Below, piece by piece: positions 30,009 through 35,856 of a stretch of 39,163 nucleotides of DNA (its first letter is position 1; each line of letters opens with the position of its first letter). A model generated the notes under the pieces. That model made no database searches and was not told the origin of the DNA. It saw nothing but the letters and a program-made list of their open reading frames with translations. The position numbers and the translations under genes were made by a program. This DNA is from Phycisphaerae bacterium (GTDB taxonomy: Bacteria > Planctomycetota > Phycisphaerae > SM23-33): NCBI GenBank assembly GCA_018335035.1, contig JAGXKT010000007.1, forward strand, positions 74,110-113,272. The letters run 5' to 3'.

Positions 30009-31376
30009 TCAGCGGCTGGGCACGGCGATCTGAAGCGTTTGCTTGGATTCGCCGCGCATGACCTCGGCGGAAACGGTTTGTCCCGGACGTTTCAGCACGT
30101 CGTCCGTGACCTGGCGGAACTGCTCGACGGTCCGAATATCCTTTCCGTCCAGGGACGTCAGCACGTCGTTGCTTCTGAATCCGGCCTGTGCCGCCGGGCT
30201 GCCGCTGGCCACCGCGTAGACGATCACGCCCGGCACGTCGCTTGCGAGCGATTGTTCCACATAGGCATCGAACAGGACGCGCCCGCGCGCGCCCAATCCC
30301 AGGCGCCGGACGTAATGCCGCGGCGCCTCCCACGGGCGATTCGGCACCGGCTCGGTCGTCACGGGGAGGGTTTGCTTCGTGCCGTCGCGGAGAACGGCCA
30401 GGGTGACCTTCGTTCCCGGCGGCAATGCGCTCAGCCGCTGCTGAAGATTCGCTGCGACTAACTGCGGCGTGCCGAGTCGCGGCAGCGGCTTGCCGTCGCG
30501 GCCGACGATCAGGTCACCGTCGCGCAGTCCCGCTTCGTCGCCGGGCGTTCCGTCGACGATCCGTCCCAAGCGAACGCAGGGCGTGTCGATCTCCTTGACG
30601 GCGGCGATGTCGGCGCTGATGCCCTCGAAGTTCAGGGCTCCGATCCACGACATGCGGCGCGGCGTGCGCGGGCGGGAGAGCACGTCGGCGAATTCCTCAA
30701 CCGGCACGAAGTAGCTCGTCTCCTGGCGGCCGCGTACGGTCACGGGCACACGCCGTCGGCCGACCTGCACAAACCGACTCGCCCGGGGCCGCTGGTGACT
30801 GACAAGCCCGATGGCCTTGCCGTCGACGTTGAAGACCGGCGAGCCGTAACGCGTCAACTTGCCGCCCGTGACGTACGCCAGCCGGTGCGGCGCGCGGACG
30901 AGTGTCGAGACGCGCGCGGCGCCGAGATAGATTGGATGCCCCACGTCCCCCGGCATCAAGCCCGCGGAGGCGACGGGCGCGCCGACGTGCAGCTTGGCCT
31001 CATCGGCGAACGTGATCGCACGCCAGCCGGTGGCGTCCTCGGCCTGGATGAAGGCGATGTTCGTCACCTCATCCAGCCAGAGCAGTTTGGCGGGCAGGGG
31101 CGTCTCCGCCTGCCCGGGGCGGAACAGTCGAAAATCATCGAGACGGTCCGCGCCGAGACTCGTCCCGACGTCCAGTGTGACGAACAGACCGGAATCGTCG
31201 ATGCACACGGCCTGTCCGCCGAACGTGCGCGTGCCGCCTTCGCCGACGTAGCTGTATCGCACCACAGCCAGCGCGTCGCGCGACGCCTTGTGCGCGGCGG
31301 TCAGGACCTTCTCGACGTCCCCGGAGGCGATCGTCGGTGCCAGCAGCGCCAGACACAGGAGAGGTTTGCGAATCAT
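30009..31376 (-). CDS. HtrA/DegP-fold protein with degenerate catalytic triad and two PDZ domains
   Basis: A 455-residue exported protein (signal peptide 1-19). Residues 25-235 align by pattern with the trypsin fold of HtrA, but the catalytic positions are lost: the His of the TNxHV motif is replaced in LFVTLDV (Asp69), the Asp of DxAL is Asn106 in EVTNIAFI, and the Ser of GNSGGP is Tyr177 in TRYGSPVFN. Two PDZ domains follow at about 248-340 (LGRIVDGTPGDEAGLRDGDL) and 358-452 (VYAVASGSPAAQAGFRSNDVL). It should be a non-proteolytic chaperone, adaptor or sensor in the periplasm. It begins 2 bases after lgt and precedes the TPR/HEAT gene by 22 bases. The start at 31376 opens a signal peptide. 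Confidence 0.85.
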   Translation of the reverse strand: MIRKPLLCLALLAPTIASGDVEKVLTAAHKASRDALAVVRYSYVGEGGTRTFGGQAVCIDDSGLFVTLDVGTSLGADRLDDFRLFRPGQAETPLPAKLLWLDEVTNIAFIQAEDATGWRAITFADEAKLHVGAPVASAGLMPGDVGHPIYLGAARVSTLVRAPHRLAYVTGGKLTRYGSPVFNVDGKAIGLVSHQRPRASRFVQVGRRRVPVTVRGRQETSYFVPVEEFADVLSRPRTPRRMSWIGALNFEGISADIAAVKEIDTPCVRLGRIVDGTPGDEAGLRDGDLIVGRDGKPLPRLGTPQLVAANLQQRLSALPPGTKVTLAVLRDGTKQTLPVTTEPVPNRPWEAPRHYVRRLGLGARGRVLFDAYVEQSLASDVPGVIVYAVASGSPAAQAGFRSNDVLTSLDGKDIRTVEQFRQVTDDVLKRPGQTVSAEVMRGESKQTLQIAVPSR

Positions 31377-31378
31377 GC

Positions 31379-33241
31379 TTAGGCCTTTCCCGGCTTTGAG
31401 CCGCTCCGTCGTGCCGTGGAATGTTGCGTTCGCCCGACCGGCGCCGGTGGCAGTCGCCCCAGAAACACCCACAACGCCACACCGGCGGCGACCAGTATCA
31501 TCGAGGTGTACTGATTGTGCGTCAAGACTCCATGAGTCAGGTCGTGGCCGTTGGAACGGACCATCTCCAGCAGAAACCGCGTGATGGGATACAGGATCAA
31601 TAGCATGGCGAAGACCTGTCCCTCCCGCCTTCGCAGACGATGAAAGCCCATCAACAGCGCCGCCAGCACCAACGCGTTGAGGATGCCCAGCGGCTGAGCG
31701 GGCTTGACCGGCAGCGACCGCTGCGCCGCGGCCAGGGCCTGTTCGTCCGCCTGAAGGTAGGCATTGGCCCGCTTTGCTGCGGCCGGGTCGTCCAGCGGGC
31801 CGAACGCCCGCCCCAGAAACTCGCCGCGCCACTGCAAGTACCTCCAGACGTCTGAGAACGTGAGCAGATTGTCGTTGTCCGTCAGTGCCAGCGCTTCCGA
31901 CCAATGCTCGCTGCCGCGTAGCACGCCGTCGCCCGCCGCCAGCGCGCGGTCCCAGTCGGCCCGATCCATCAGCCGATCGGGTCCGGCCGCCCTGTCGAAC
32001 AGGTCGTGGGCCGTCTGCTCGTCGTCGAGCAGCACCGCCAGTTGATCGCTCGCCAACGCCGCATGCAACTCCCGCGGAGGCAACAGGGGGTACAGTTCTT
32101 TCTGCGTCACGGCTCGTGCGGCCTTCCGTGCGTGCGCCCGGGCCTGCTTGGCGAAGTGGCGATCCCACTTGGCCTTGTCGGGCCAGTTGATCAGGCGCCC
32201 GTCCAGCGGAATGTGGGGAACCTGCAGTTCGTCGGCCTGAAGCGCGGCGTTGGCGCGTCCGGCCGCGGCGGGATCATGCAGTGGGCCGAACCGCTCGATG
32301 AGCCATGCGCGCCGCCACTGGAGGTAGTCCCACGCCTCGTCGAAGGTCAACGTGCCGTCGCCGTTACCGTCGCTGAGGACAGCGACGGACCAGTGCTCGC
32401 TTCCACGGAGGAACCCGCCGCCGCGGTTCCGCGCGGTCAGCCAGTCATCGCGCCCCACTTGTCCGTCGTCGCCGGCCAGGGCATCGAAGGCCTCTTCGGC
32501 GACATCGCGGGCGGCGCGCAGCGTCACGAGCTGGTCGTCGTCCAGCGCGCCGTGACGGTCCCAGACAGGGATCAGCGTCACGGCGTCGCCGTCGCCGGCC
32601 TCGGCGGCGCGCCGCGGATTGACCAGTCGCTGCCCCGGCGGGGGGCTGAGCTGATCGGCGAATACGGGCGTTGGTGTATCCGTGCTGTTCGAGAAGGGAT
32701 TGTCTCGCCCGTCGAACTTCAACAGGGGCTTGGAGTACAGTGGGAACCGCATCGCCAGCGGCCAGTCGTGTCGGCACGGCGCGCCGTAGCAGCAGCCGTT
32801 GAGCGTGCAGCCGGCCCGCCCGAACGCCAGACCGATCATCAGCGACGGGGCGATGATGTCGAGATAGCGGCGGATCGGCAGACGGCGAACACGCAGGAAC
32901 ACCAGCACCGCGAGCGCCGCGAGCACCACGCCCCCGTAGTAGATCAGCCCGCCGGAGGTGATGTTAAGCATGGCGCCGAGCGCGTGGGGCCTGCCGGCGA
33001 AGTGCTCGTAGTTTTCGATGACATAGGCCGCGCGGGCCCCGACGACGCCGGCGACCAGCGCCAGCAGCCCGCAGTGAGCGACATTGTGGGGCGATTCGCC
33101 CGCGCGAAGGGCCCGCCGCTGGGCCAGGTAGAGCGCCGCCAGGAATCCGAACACGAGCATCAGCCCGTAGCCGAAAACCCGCAACGACAACTCGAAGCCG
33201 AGCAGTTCCACGCGGCCGAAATCGATAATGATGCGTTGCAT
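31379..33241 (-). CDS. lgt: Prolipoprotein diacylglyceryl transferase Lgt with EF-hand-containing insert
   Basis: Lgt transfers diacylglycerol from phosphatidylglycerol to the lipobox Cys of prolipoproteins. This form has 620 residues, about twice the usual length. The Lgt core is residues 1-167 (membrane helices; GLIYYGG at 98-104, where many have a His before the Gly pair; GRAGCTLNGCCYG at 141-153 with Arg142) and 516-596 (YPITRFLLEMVR at 551-562 with Arg555 and Glu559, then THNQYTS). Between them lie about 345 extra residues. They hold two related 100-residue units (237-337 and 399-500); the first has a perfect EF-hand loop DGNGDGTLTFDE (291-302). The insert lies on the outer side, where Lgt has a small head domain. 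The gene follows panD by 31 bases. The start at 33241 removes an irrelevant upstream extension. Confidence 0.92.
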   Translation of the reverse strand: MQRIIIDFGRVELLGFELSLRVFGYGLMLVFGFLAALYLAQRRALRAGESPHNVAHCGLLALVAGVVGARAAYVIENYEHFAGRPHALGAMLNITSGGLIYYGGVVLAALAVLVFLRVRRLPIRRYLDIIAPSLMIGLAFGRAGCTLNGCCYGAPCRHDWPLAMRFPLYSKPLLKFDGRDNPFSNSTDTPTPVFADQLSPPPGQRLVNPRRAAEAGDGDAVTLIPVWDRHGALDDDQLVTLRAARDVAEEAFDALAGDDGQVGRDDWLTARNRGGGFLRGSEHWSVAVLSDGNGDGTLTFDEAWDYLQWRRAWLIERFGPLHDPAAAGRANAALQADELQVPHIPLDGRLINWPDKAKWDRHFAKQARAHARKAARAVTQKELYPLLPPRELHAALASDQLAVLLDDEQTAHDLFDRAAGPDRLMDRADWDRALAAGDGVLRGSEHWSEALALTDNDNLLTFSDVWRYLQWRGEFLGRAFGPLDDPAAAKRANAYLQADEQALAAAQRSLPVKPAQPLGILNALVLAALLMGFHRLRRREGQVFAMLLILYPITRFLLEMVRSNGHDLTHGVLTHNQYTSMILVAAGVALWVFLGRLPPAPVGRTQHSTARRSGSKPGKA

Positions 33242-33272: not shown

Positions 33273-33629
33273 CTACCTGGTTTCGGTGATGGCGTTGGCG
33301 TCGTCGACCAGCACGACACGGGGGCTTAGCGCCGCGGCCTCGTCGTCCGTGACGTAGGCGAAGGCCATGATGATGACTTCGTCACCGACCGTCACAAGCC
33401 GCGCCGCGGCACCGTTGATGCAGACCGTCCCGCTGCCGCGGTCGCCTTCCATCACGTACGTCTCGAAGCGGGCGCCGTCGGTCATGTCCGCCACCAGCAC
33501 GCATTCGCCGACAATAAGCCCGGCCGCGTCGATCAAATCACGGTCGATCGTGATCGACCCGACGTAGTCGATCCGCGCCTCGGTCACCGTCGCGCGGTGG
33601 ATCTTGGATTTCAAAAGCTTCTGAAGCAT
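33273..33629 (-). CDS. panD: Aspartate 1-decarboxylase
   Basis: A 118-residue pyruvoyl enzyme that makes beta-alanine from aspartate for pantothenate. The N-terminus [18 protein letters not shown] is the family start. Autocleavage occurs at Gly24-Ser25 in DYVGSITI, which turns Ser25 into the pyruvoyl group. [21 protein letters not shown] is the conserved C-terminal core. The ATG at 33629 gives normal length; GGGTGA precedes it. It is the second gene of a panC-panD pair, with a hairpin (33641-33672) between them that may reduce read-through. Confidence 0.97.
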
Positions 33630-33640
33630 GGAATCACCCG

Positions 33641-33672
33641 GCAAACAACGCCCGCGCCACAACGGCGCGGGC
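33641..33672 (-). terminator. Hairpin between panC and panD
   Basis: A perfect 9-bp GC-rich stem GCCCGCGCC/GGCGCGGGC (33650-33658, 33664-33672) with loop ACAAC. On the minus strand it is followed by GTTGTTTG. It has the form of an intrinsic terminator or attenuator 15 bases after the panC stop codon, so panD and downstream genes may be expressed at a lower level or from partial read-through. Confidence 0.5.
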
Positions 33673-33687
33673 AGGTATGTCCCTATT

Positions 33688-34551
33688 CTACGACGCGCCG
33701 GCGGGCGGGTCCACCCGCAGATTGTCGATCAGCCGCGCCGAGCCGAGCCGCACGGCCAGGGCGATCACCACGGGGCGGTCCGTCCGCTGCACGTCTTCCA
33801 GTGTCTCCGGGTCCACGACGCGGACGTAGTCGATCGTCCCGTCCGGCGCCCCGTCCGCCAAGGCGGCGCGAACGGCCTCGATGACCGTCTCGGCCGGCGG
33901 CGCGTCGCGGCGGATCATCGCCGCGGCCTGTTGCAGGGCCGCATGCAATGCCGGCGCCTGGCGGCGCTGCTCGGCGCTGAGGTAGCGATTCCGGCTGGAG
34001 ACCGCCAACCCGTCCGGCTCGCGCACCGTCGGACAGACGACCAGCTCGACGGGAACATTCAGGTCCGAAACCATGCGGCGGAGGATCGTGGCCTGCTGGT
34101 AGTCCTTCGCACCGAAATACGCCCGGTCCGGCGCGACGATGTTCAGCAGCTTGGCCACCACGGTGCAGACGCCGTCGAAATGCCCGGGGCGGTCGGCGCC
34201 ACAGAGCGTTTCGCTGAGCCGATCCACGTGCACCGTTGTCAGCGACCGGCGCGGGTACATCTCCTCGACACTCGGAGCGAAGACCACGTCCGCCCCGTGG
34301 GCCTCACAGACCGCCAGGTCTTCCCGCTCGCAGCGGGGGTAGCTGTCGTAGTCCTCGCCGGGTCCGAACTGCGTGGGGTTGACGAAAATGCTGACCACGA
34401 CGCAGCCCGTCTCCGCTCGCGCCCGGTCGATCAGCGCCGCGTGCCCAGCGTGCAGCGCGCCCATCGTCGGCACGAAGCCGACGGACCGTCCGGCCGCGCG
34501 GGGCGTGCCGATCACACGGCGAACGTCAGCAATGGTGCGTGTGGTTTCCAT
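33688..34551 (-). CDS. panC: Pantothenate synthetase
   Basis: A 287-residue enzyme joining pantoate and beta-alanine with [13 protein letters not shown] near residue 28 is the HIGH-type nucleotide-binding motif. [41 protein letters not shown] and the SARLIDNL ending are family features. Length is normal. The start follows GGTGAG. A 194-base spacer with a long palindrome separates it from the kinase gene upstream, so it probably starts a new unit. Confidence 0.97.
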
Positions 34552-34590
34552 GGCTCACCAGCGATTCGGATGTCATTCGTGGGCGGGTAC

Positions 34591-34633
34591 CGTGGTCTGC
34601 GACGCCCCGGCGTGTCGGGGCGTCGCAACCACG
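34591..34633. repeat. Near-perfect 18-bp-stem palindrome
   Basis: CGTGGT, one bulged C, and TGCGACGCCCCG pair with CGGGGCGTCGCA and ACCACG across the loop GCGTGT: 18 paired bases with one bulge. It lies between the deoxynucleoside kinase gene and panC. No U-tract follows on the minus strand, so it is not a standard terminator. A REP-like palindrome or an RNA-stabilising element are alternatives. Confidence 0.7.
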
Positions 34634-34693
34634 TGCGAAAGAGCGTGGTTGCTCGCTTGATTGCCATCGGGGCTCGCGAACCGCGGCACCCCG

Positions 34694-34735
34694 CCGATCT
34701 GTGTAATCTGTGGATTCTGTTGGTGTTCCTCGTGC
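34694..34735. repeat. Degenerate (A)TCTGTG-type short repeat array
   Basis: A run of related 9-10-mers (GATCTGTGTA, ATCTGTGGA, TTCTGTTGG) about ten bases after the kinase stop codon on the minus strand. It resembles intergenic arrays common in several bacterial phyla that read CCACAGATTACACAGAT on the other strand. It is not coding. Confidence 0.55.
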
Positions 34736-34745
34736 GCCGCGCGTG

Positions 34746-35348
34746 CTAATCGCGGCTTGGCGATAGGACTTGCCGCACCTGCTCGGCGATGGCGGCAACC
34801 GTCGCGGCGTCGCGGAAGTCGACCTGATCAGCACGAAGCGTAACCGTGCCGTCGGTCTCGGCCGCCACGGCCGAACAGGCATCGCGCATTGCCTGGAGGA
34901 AGTCGCGGTCCATGCCCTGTTCGAATCTCCGCCCACGGGCACCGATGCGCCGCCGAAGCTCGTCGGTCGCGGCGTCGACGGCGATCAGAACGTCCGGCGG
35001 CTTGATCCGCGGCTCGATCCGTCGGGCCAGCGCGTCGTACAAGGCCCAGTCGTCGGCGTCGAGCTGCTGCCGGGCGTACATGCGATCGTGGCAGAAGCCG
35101 TAGTCGCTGATACGCGTTCCGGTCCCCGGCCAGGACGGCAGGGCGAGTTGGGCTGCCCGCGCCATAAGGAAGTACACCTGGGCGGGCAGCTTCGCCGAGG
35201 CGTCCGTCGTATACGACACGCCGAGGAACGGGTTACCCGCGTAATCCTCGTAGAGCACCTCGGCGCCGAGGTGCCCGGCGAGTCCTTCGGCAAGGGTCGT
35301 CTTGCCCGCCGCCGGCGGCCCGATGATGCTCACCAGCGTCGCGCTCAT
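34746..35348 (-). CDS. Deoxynucleoside kinase
   Basis: A 200-residue P-loop kinase of the dNK/thymidine kinase 2 family (PF01712). Walker A GPPAAGKT is at 10-17. LYEDYAGNPFLGVSY is the variant of the ExxxNPFL substrate loop, and ISDYGFCHDRMYA with VLIAVDAATDELRRRIGARGRR carries the DR-type nucleoside contact and the arginine-rich lid. It would phosphorylate deoxyadenosine or deoxyguanosine for salvage. It overlaps folK by ATGA, a pairing seen in many bacteria; the two products act in unrelated pathways but share a transcript. Confidence 0.9.
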   Translation of the reverse strand: MSATLVSIIGPPAAGKTTLAEGLAGHLGAEVLYEDYAGNPFLGVSYTTDASAKLPAQVYFLMARAAQLALPSWPGTGTRISDYGFCHDRMYARQQLDADDWALYDALARRIEPRIKPPDVLIAVDAATDELRRRIGARGRRFEQGMDRDFLQAMRDACSAVAAETDGTVTLRADQVDFRDAATVAAIAEQVRQVLSPSRD

Positions 35349-35827
35349 ACGTCGCTCTCCAGCTCCGCCAGCAGGCGGGCGACGGTCTTATCCAGGCCCG
35401 GGTGTCGCGCCCGCGGAGCGATCTGCGCCAGCGGGCCAAGCACGAATCGCCGCTCGTGCATTCGCGGATGAGGCAAGGTCAGCGCGTCGGTGTCGCTGGT
35501 CTGCTCGTCGTACAGCAGCAGGTCCAGGTCGCACGTTCGCGGACCCCAGCGCGTCTCGCGCGCCCGGTCGCGCCCGAGAGCGACCTCGATCTTCTGAAGC
35601 CGCTCGAGCAGATCGGGGGGCGGCAGTTCGGTGGAGACGCACACGGCCGCGTTGAGATACGCCGGCTGATCCTCCGGGCCGCCGACCGGAGCCGTGCGCA
35701 CGAATTGCGAGATGCGCAGCACCTCGGTGTGGTCGATTTCGTCGATCCGCTTGACGGCGTCCAGCAGCGTCGCGGCGCTGTCGCCGACGTTGCTGCCAAG
35801 GGCGATGTAGGCGGTGTGCGAATCCAT
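35345..35827 (-). CDS. folK: 2-amino-4-hydroxy-6-hydroxymethyldihydropteridine pyrophosphokinase
   Basis: A 160-residue HPPK, which transfers pyrophosphate from ATP to 6-hydroxymethyl-7,8-dihydropterin in folate synthesis. TAYIALGSNVGD opens the enzyme. TAPVGGPEDQPAYLNAAV, RWGPRTCDLDLLLYD (two catalytic Asp of the DxD metal site) and PHPRMHERRFVLGPL are diagnostic. The ATG at 35827 is preceded by GGAGG seven bases upstream. Promoter TTGCGA/GACAAT at 35857-35884. It overlaps the kinase gene by four bases. Confidence 0.96.
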   Translation of the reverse strand: MDSHTAYIALGSNVGDSAATLLDAVKRIDEIDHTEVLRISQFVRTAPVGGPEDQPAYLNAAVCVSTELPPPDLLERLQKIEVALGRDRARETRWGPRTCDLDLLLYDEQTSDTDALTLPHPRMHERRFVLGPLAQIAPRARHPGLDKTVARLLAELESDV

Positions 35828-35856
35828 AAGGACGCCTCCGGAAGCGACGAGATGCC

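Follow-up and report, generated by a model that had tools for sequence, protein, structure and literature searches.

What is a calcium-binding-type domain doing inside prolipoprotein diacylglyceryl transferase (Lgt), and where did it come from? To our knowledge, Lgt is near-universal in bacteria, has a compact fold and has no known metal requirement. The question is raised by an lgt gene in the stretch of DNA analysed here (the window; 39,163 nucleotides of a Phycisphaerae genome). An earlier note, made from the sequence alone, had proposed that the membrane core of this Lgt is split by a large extracytoplasmic insert containing duplicated EF-hand units, through which calcium could control or stabilise the enzyme, or on which substrates could dock.

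The lgt gene and its membrane core

The gene is read on the minus strand from an ATG at 33241 to a stop at 31379. This start is supported by the N-terminus of the 620-residue product, MQRIIIDFG, which fits the M-x-Q-I-I-I-D-F-G conserved among family homologues. The product matched PF01790 with E = 1.9e-48 (165 bits, against a cut-off of 24.9) in two stretches, the N-terminal one covering residues 17–164, and each half of the core exceeded the cut-off on its own, confirming a core split by an insert of about 340 residues. The PF01790 search of the genome (97% complete) found this one gene and no second, ordinary Lgt elsewhere. The genome also encodes LspA, which acts next in the pathway.

The nearest solved structure by sequence was that of E. 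coli Lgt (5azb; E = 7e-15), which was also the best structural match to the model in the PDB (seven-helix fold; Z = 21.2 over 263 residues, rmsd 3.2). The likeness to E. coli Lgt (5azb/5azc; PF01790) extends over the membrane core and the arms. R142, R555, E559 and R562 are invariant in 29 homologues, and Y551 is nearly so; in the 5azb alignment these residues correspond to E. coli R143, R239, E243, R246 and Y235, respectively, which belong to the catalytic network and include the essential arginines R143 and R239. E. coli H103, N146 and E151, on the other hand, are replaced by Y102, C145 and C150, and the signature GRxGN-FINGE appears in the variant form GRAGC-TLNGC. Replacements of the H103/N146/E151 type have likewise been described for distant Lgts (PMC13251419). 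As judged from sequence and model, the gene product is a genuine and complete Lgt, with predicted diacylglyceryl transfer activity.

The extended signature (GRAGCTLNGCCYGAPC, residues 141–156, 32774–32821 on the minus strand) includes cysteines 145, 150 and 151, none of which varies among the 29 family Lgts. For Leptospira Lgt, a disulfide has been proposed between cysteines at comparable positions (PMC13251419). Upstream of lgt, the same strand carries panD, panC, a deoxynucleoside kinase gene and folK (HPPK) at 33273–35830, and a PanD-like motif was found just upstream of lgt at 15 of the 19 family loci checked. The gene directly downstream (30009–31442, minus strand) encodes, according to Pfam, a trypsin-like domain with two PDZ stretches after it; its product has YGSPVF, apparently in place of the usual GNSGGP serine motif, and may be an inactive HtrA-like protein.

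Table 1. Features of the lgt gene and its product; positions are those of the window.
Feature	Position	Strand	Basis
lgt (prolipoprotein diacylglyceryl transferase); head domain split; 620 aa + stop	31379..33241	-	PF01790; 5azb match; one PF01790 gene
N-terminal membrane core, residues 1-172; signature GRAGCTLNGCCYG at 141-153	32726..33241	-	Pfam, PDB, homologue alignment
Linker in the head domain leading to unit 1, residues 173-229; model confidence low over 204-233	32555..32725	-	Alignment, AlphaFold2
EF-hand unit 1 (predicted), residues 230-340	32222..32554	-	Profile match 7.1e-38; AlphaFold2; EF-hand structural neighbours
Degenerate EF1 frame in unit 1 (LAGDDGQVGRDD), residues 255-266	32444..32479	-	Relatives' alignment; helix-loop-helix with bridge in model
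EF2 of unit 1, DGNGDGTLTFDE, residues 291-302	32336..32371	-	Sole canonical calcium loop of the protein
EF3 remnant in unit 1, FGPLHDPAAAGRAN, residues 318-331	32249..32290	-	Relatives: FDxDxDGxLxxxERxAAN
Linker between units, residues 341-391	32069..32221	-	Alignment, AlphaFold2
EF-hand unit 2 (predicted), residues 392-502	31736..32068	-	Profile match 6.7e-37; identity to unit 1; pLDDT
EF2 frame in unit 2 (LTDNDNLLTFSD), residues 453-464, degenerate at position 1 (Leu)	31850..31885	-	Unit alignment
C-terminal membrane core, residues 509-600; conserved Y551, R555, E559, R562	31442..31717	-	Homologue alignment

Position of the insert in the head domain

The two halves of the core align to E. 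coli Lgt up to residue 168 and from residue 193 onward, and a head loop of about 25 residues in E. coli is matched by one of about 340 here. E. coli residues G154, R155, D157, E172, H196 and P197 have been treated as part of the head domain, which is periplasmic (PMC4728403, PMC13251419). Since the insert is located between positions 168 and 193 of this periplasm-facing domain, it is predicted to be extracytoplasmic, on the periplasmic side of the membrane as previously proposed and not on the cytosolic side. The head is the most variable part of Lgt and has been proposed to contact the prolipoprotein linker; exchanging it alters function in E. coli, and some head swaps are tolerated there (PMC13251419). 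Parts of the linkers had pLDDT values below 50 in the full-length AlphaFold2 model, which does not fix where the units sit with respect to the membrane and the cavity.

Sequence of the EF-hand units

The insert contains two units of about 111 residues that are 51% identical over 115 aligned residues. The alignment score was 267, compared to a mean of 34 (sd 6, maximum 64) for 2000 shuffled sequences, or z = 38, so the repeat described in the earlier note is well founded. An assembly error was ruled out as the source of the duplication, because identity between the two copies is just 51% at the protein level and 57% at the DNA level.

The earlier note had assigned one EF-hand to each repeat. 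The repeats are indeed predicted EF-hand units, but alignment with relatives revealed three EF-hand frames in a row in each (EF1, EF2 and EF3), making six loops in the protein, of which one is canonical. EF1 is degenerate, and its position 1 is not Asp in any relative. EF2 of unit 1 fits the pattern D-x-[DNS]-x-[DNS]-G-x-[ILVF]-x-x-x-E exactly where the perfect loop had been noted, a strict match that arose in 19 of 20,000 shuffles of the insert. Unit 2 has no canonical loop; its EF2 keeps the frame with the previously observed Leu at position 1. EF3, which reads FDxDxDGxLxxxE in many relatives, is reduced to FGPLxDPAAA in both units.

A profile search of the insert against EF-hand families, which the earlier note had suggested as a check, gave a divided result. 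The Pfam EF-hand models stayed below their cut-offs both for this Lgt and for its isolated insert, but they matched seven of the 13 units in the family, with E values up to 0.01 and a best case (locus L012) of 37 bits against a cut-off of 25.9. A profile built from the units matched SCaMC, calpain and sorcin in the PDB with E values of 5e-4 to 0.02. Weak matches to ferritin, TMD0 and Mn-superoxide dismutase were judged to be due to chance.

Predicted fold of the units

AlphaFold2 models were made using an alignment of family sequences as input. For unit 1 modelled alone, pLDDT was 92 and pTM was 0.85, and the loops of EF1 and EF2 contained single bridge residues. In the models, the units consist of helix-loop-helix pairs connected by a β-bridge. 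In the full-length model, unit 2 was predicted with a pLDDT of about 95–97; unit 1, for which the other aligned sequences offer no equivalent, was poor. Nearly all of the top structural neighbours were EF-hand proteins, including sorcin, centrin, calmodulin, troponin C and S100. The E values and Z scores were middling (0.07 and 7.0 at best, respectively), as would be expected for a small helical domain. The structure prediction called for in the earlier note thus did find an EF-hand fold, and on the basis of sequence and model each unit is an EF-hand domain, with calcium binding predicted for the canonical loop of unit 1.

The units have the EF-hand fold in common with the penta-EF-hand proteins (calpain small subunit, sorcin), the SCaMC regulatory domain and calmodulin, with profile E values down to 5e-4 and Foldseek probabilities up to 0.98. 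These proteins, however, are eukaryotic and either cytosolic or mitochondrial, and their kinship with the units is evident at the level of the EF-hand superfamily. Assignment to the penta-EF-hand group, which has five EF-hands per chain with the fifth used for dimerisation, was ruled out by the three frames per unit.

Distribution and constraint in related genomes

Among about 30 genomes of this family of uncultured planctomycetes, mostly metagenome assemblies, the unit was present in 13 Lgts, including this one, and absent from 16. The family lies within the Phycisphaerae and includes UBA12270, B1Sed10_206R1 and SM23_33. The other 12 carriers have one unit each, at the identical site, and two units were seen only here. 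The single-unit Lgts (e.g., L012/L064 of UBA12270 and L002/L063 of B1Sed10_206R1) thus differ from this one in unit number, but share its insertion site, the unit itself and a similar gene setting downstream of panD; L012 and L017 each have a unit with two canonical loops. In a set of 80 named Lgt loci, the unit was confined to members of this family; the head gaps of the other Planctomycetota and Verrucomicrobiota Lgts in the set ranged from 8 to about 180 residues and contained no EF loop. Searches with unit profiles in 397 genomes from the class and 392 from the phylum gave no recognisable Lgt match outside the family. The sequence of another Phycisphaerae Lgt (L091), whose head gap spans about 182 residues and lacks an EF-hand loop, indicates that further kinds of head insertion exist in the phylum.

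All carriers belong to a single supported clade (100/99) that comprises 20 Lgts, seven of which lack the insert. The core tree requires five changes of state; a single clade of carriers was not recovered, but neither was it rejected (AU p = 0.058), and one gain followed by losses is therefore indistinguishable from several gains in this tree. The insert-free members of the clade allow empty and occupied sites to be compared directly: for example, VAPRDFTPEQITVALGEWSHPLKPAQ is found where carriers have LPPRDLHG...YLQADLY...WSxPVRPAQ. In a tree of the units, units 1 and 2 of this Lgt are sister branches (96/92), so the duplication took place inside the lineage of this gene.

The calcium sites vary more than the domain that bears them. 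EF2 and EF3 have been lost independently among the carriers, with calcium ligands disappearing loop by loop while the Trp, Gly and hydrophobic positions of the unit stay. A loop whose positions 1, 3, 5 and 12 all carry ligands occurs at least once in 12 of the 13 carriers, and in none of 17 insert-free Lgts. The exception, L004, keeps the domain without any calcium loop, which argues that calcium is not indispensable for it. Independent loss would be expected to leave about 2.7 carriers with no complete loop, not significantly different from the one seen; the pattern of at least one loop per carrier is suggestive, and within reach of independent loss. In three pairs of carriers, dN/dS for the unit was 0.13, 0.23 and 0.37, compared to 0.09–0.40 for the core in those pairs. 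The unit is under purifying selection, with dN/dS similar to or modestly above that of the core, and its presence is patchy.

Relationship to secreted EF-hand repeat proteins

The unit profile also matched secreted EF-hand repeat proteins from this and neighbouring families, mostly with E values of 1e-10 to 5e-18. The matching region is the N-terminal domain of these proteins (L044–L054, L060), which has about 95 residues and, like the Lgt unit, a degenerate EF1, an EF2 and an EF3, together with the motifs FVRxFDxW (LRGSEHW in Lgt) and AANxxL. The proteins differ from Lgt in being soluble, with an apparent N-terminal signal sequence (assigned by eye) and further EF-hands. When both calcium loops were masked, the profile still matched the secreted proteins at 2e-5 to 2e-11, while generic planctomycete EF-hand repeat proteins scored no better than 0.03. 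The match thus extends beyond the motif, and points to common descent of the Lgt unit and the secreted N-terminal domain. The Lgt units form one clade relative to the secreted domains (100/100), which were the single outgroup. Because the secreted form is more widespread, we infer that the domain was transferred from a secreted protein to Lgt. A donor copy of the secreted protein was looked for in the genome that carries this lgt gene, and was not found. The secreted proteins are lineage-specific, with several per genome in two of the genomes (G010 and G033); L046:1459-1788:+ is one example, and the N-terminal domain of the group reads VDPYxxxxQKxxFFxAAGxDxELxxxEF...FVRxFDxW...

Discussion

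Envelope EF-hand proteins described elsewhere in bacteria, such as Caulobacter CaBP (PMC13171946) and Pseudomonas EfhP (PMC4053335), resemble this Lgt in having EF-hands in or at the envelope, but they are free-standing and not part of a lipoprotein-maturation enzyme. We found no paper combining EF-hands with prolipoprotein diacylglyceryl transferase in the open full-text literature, which was the part searched. The earlier remark that such an Lgt had not been described therefore holds for the open literature, but the insert is not peculiar to this gene, being common to 12 related genomes; among the genes seen, only the duplication is. From its sequence, an Lgt with an inserted EF-hand domain, single across the family and doubled here, appears to be a new variant of the enzyme.

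The explanation that we prefer, although we would put its chances no higher than even, is that the Lgt head carries a calcium-stabilised accessory extension for substrates or partners, made from a domain akin to that of the secreted proteins and duplicated here, which would bind calcium and may affect activity. Sequence, trees and models show the Lgt identity, the insertion site in the head, the EF-hand fold, the kinship with the N-terminal domain of the secreted repeat proteins, the duplication in this genome and the purifying selection. The intact loop of unit 1 would be filled with calcium most of the time in the periplasm, holding the domain rigid, with unit 2 and the degenerate EF1 serving as calcium-free scaffold partners. 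The extension would lie above the active-site cavity and may aid the handling of prolipoproteins or of another envelope partner. Catalysis would remain with the conserved core (R142, R555 and their neighbours), and the extension would be accessory, non-catalytic and probably no switch. Some effect on substrate handling would naturally be expected, because the head is what varies most in Lgt and its exchange alters function (PMC13251419).

Of the roles suggested in the earlier note, stabilisation by calcium or docking by the insert may apply, and calcium control of the enzyme was not supported. Calcium is unlikely to serve catalysis, since E. coli Lgt works in EDTA (PMC4728403). A switch, in which loop occupancy would follow external calcium and open or close the Lgt cavity so that lipoprotein maturation tracks calcium, could draw on the insertion in the head adjoining the cavity, on the capacity of EF-hands for conformational change, and on the fact that the free-standing envelope EF-hand proteins of other bacteria are linked to their stress responses (PMC13171946, PMC4053335). 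However, one of six loops is canonical, the calcium sites vary in number and position among relatives, several close relatives manage without the insert, and E. coli Lgt has no need of metal, all of which makes a switch rather improbable; an essential one is disfavoured by the patchy presence of the insert. It would be a long shot that calcium at the head EF-hand gates access or selects substrates, with external calcium setting which lipoproteins are made, or how many.

Calcium might instead be dispensable, with the EF-hand lobe acting as a docking platform, that is, a protein-binding scaffold for the prolipoprotein linker or for a secretion or maturation partner, and the remaining loop a relic. 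In their calcium-free state, EF-hand lobes often bind proteins. The loop-by-loop decay of the calcium ligands around a preserved framework, the absence of an intact loop from L004, the lack of a canonical EF1 in any relative and the proposed meeting of the head with the prolipoprotein linker (PMC13251419) are all consistent with this role. The ligand-complete loop retained by 12 of the 13 members argues against it, albeit at a frequency not significantly above that expected from independent loss, and we consider calcium-independent docking unlikely, if a real possibility. The domain might also be a tolerated passenger, captured by recombination and kept merely because the head loop accepts insertions. 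The highly variable length of this loop (8 to about 180 residues in unit-free Lgts), the patchy presence of the unit and the head swaps tolerated by E. coli (PMC13251419) would fit. This is very unlikely in view of the low dN/dS of the unit, the retention of the fold across deep divergence, and the fact that the domain was duplicated here, not lost.

The analysis identifies a lineage-specific EF-hand domain common to Lgt and secreted proteins. If calcium did gate the head, lipoprotein biogenesis in this lineage would be coupled to calcium at its first step. A calcium-binding-type domain placed in the Lgt head by the cavity amounts to a natural domain-insertion experiment on a part of the enzyme thought to shape its substrate range, and close relatives with the insert, without it and, in one case, with two copies provide material for testing head function. 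The finding suggests that calcium may stabilise or tune a basic, normally metal-independent enzyme in these bacteria.
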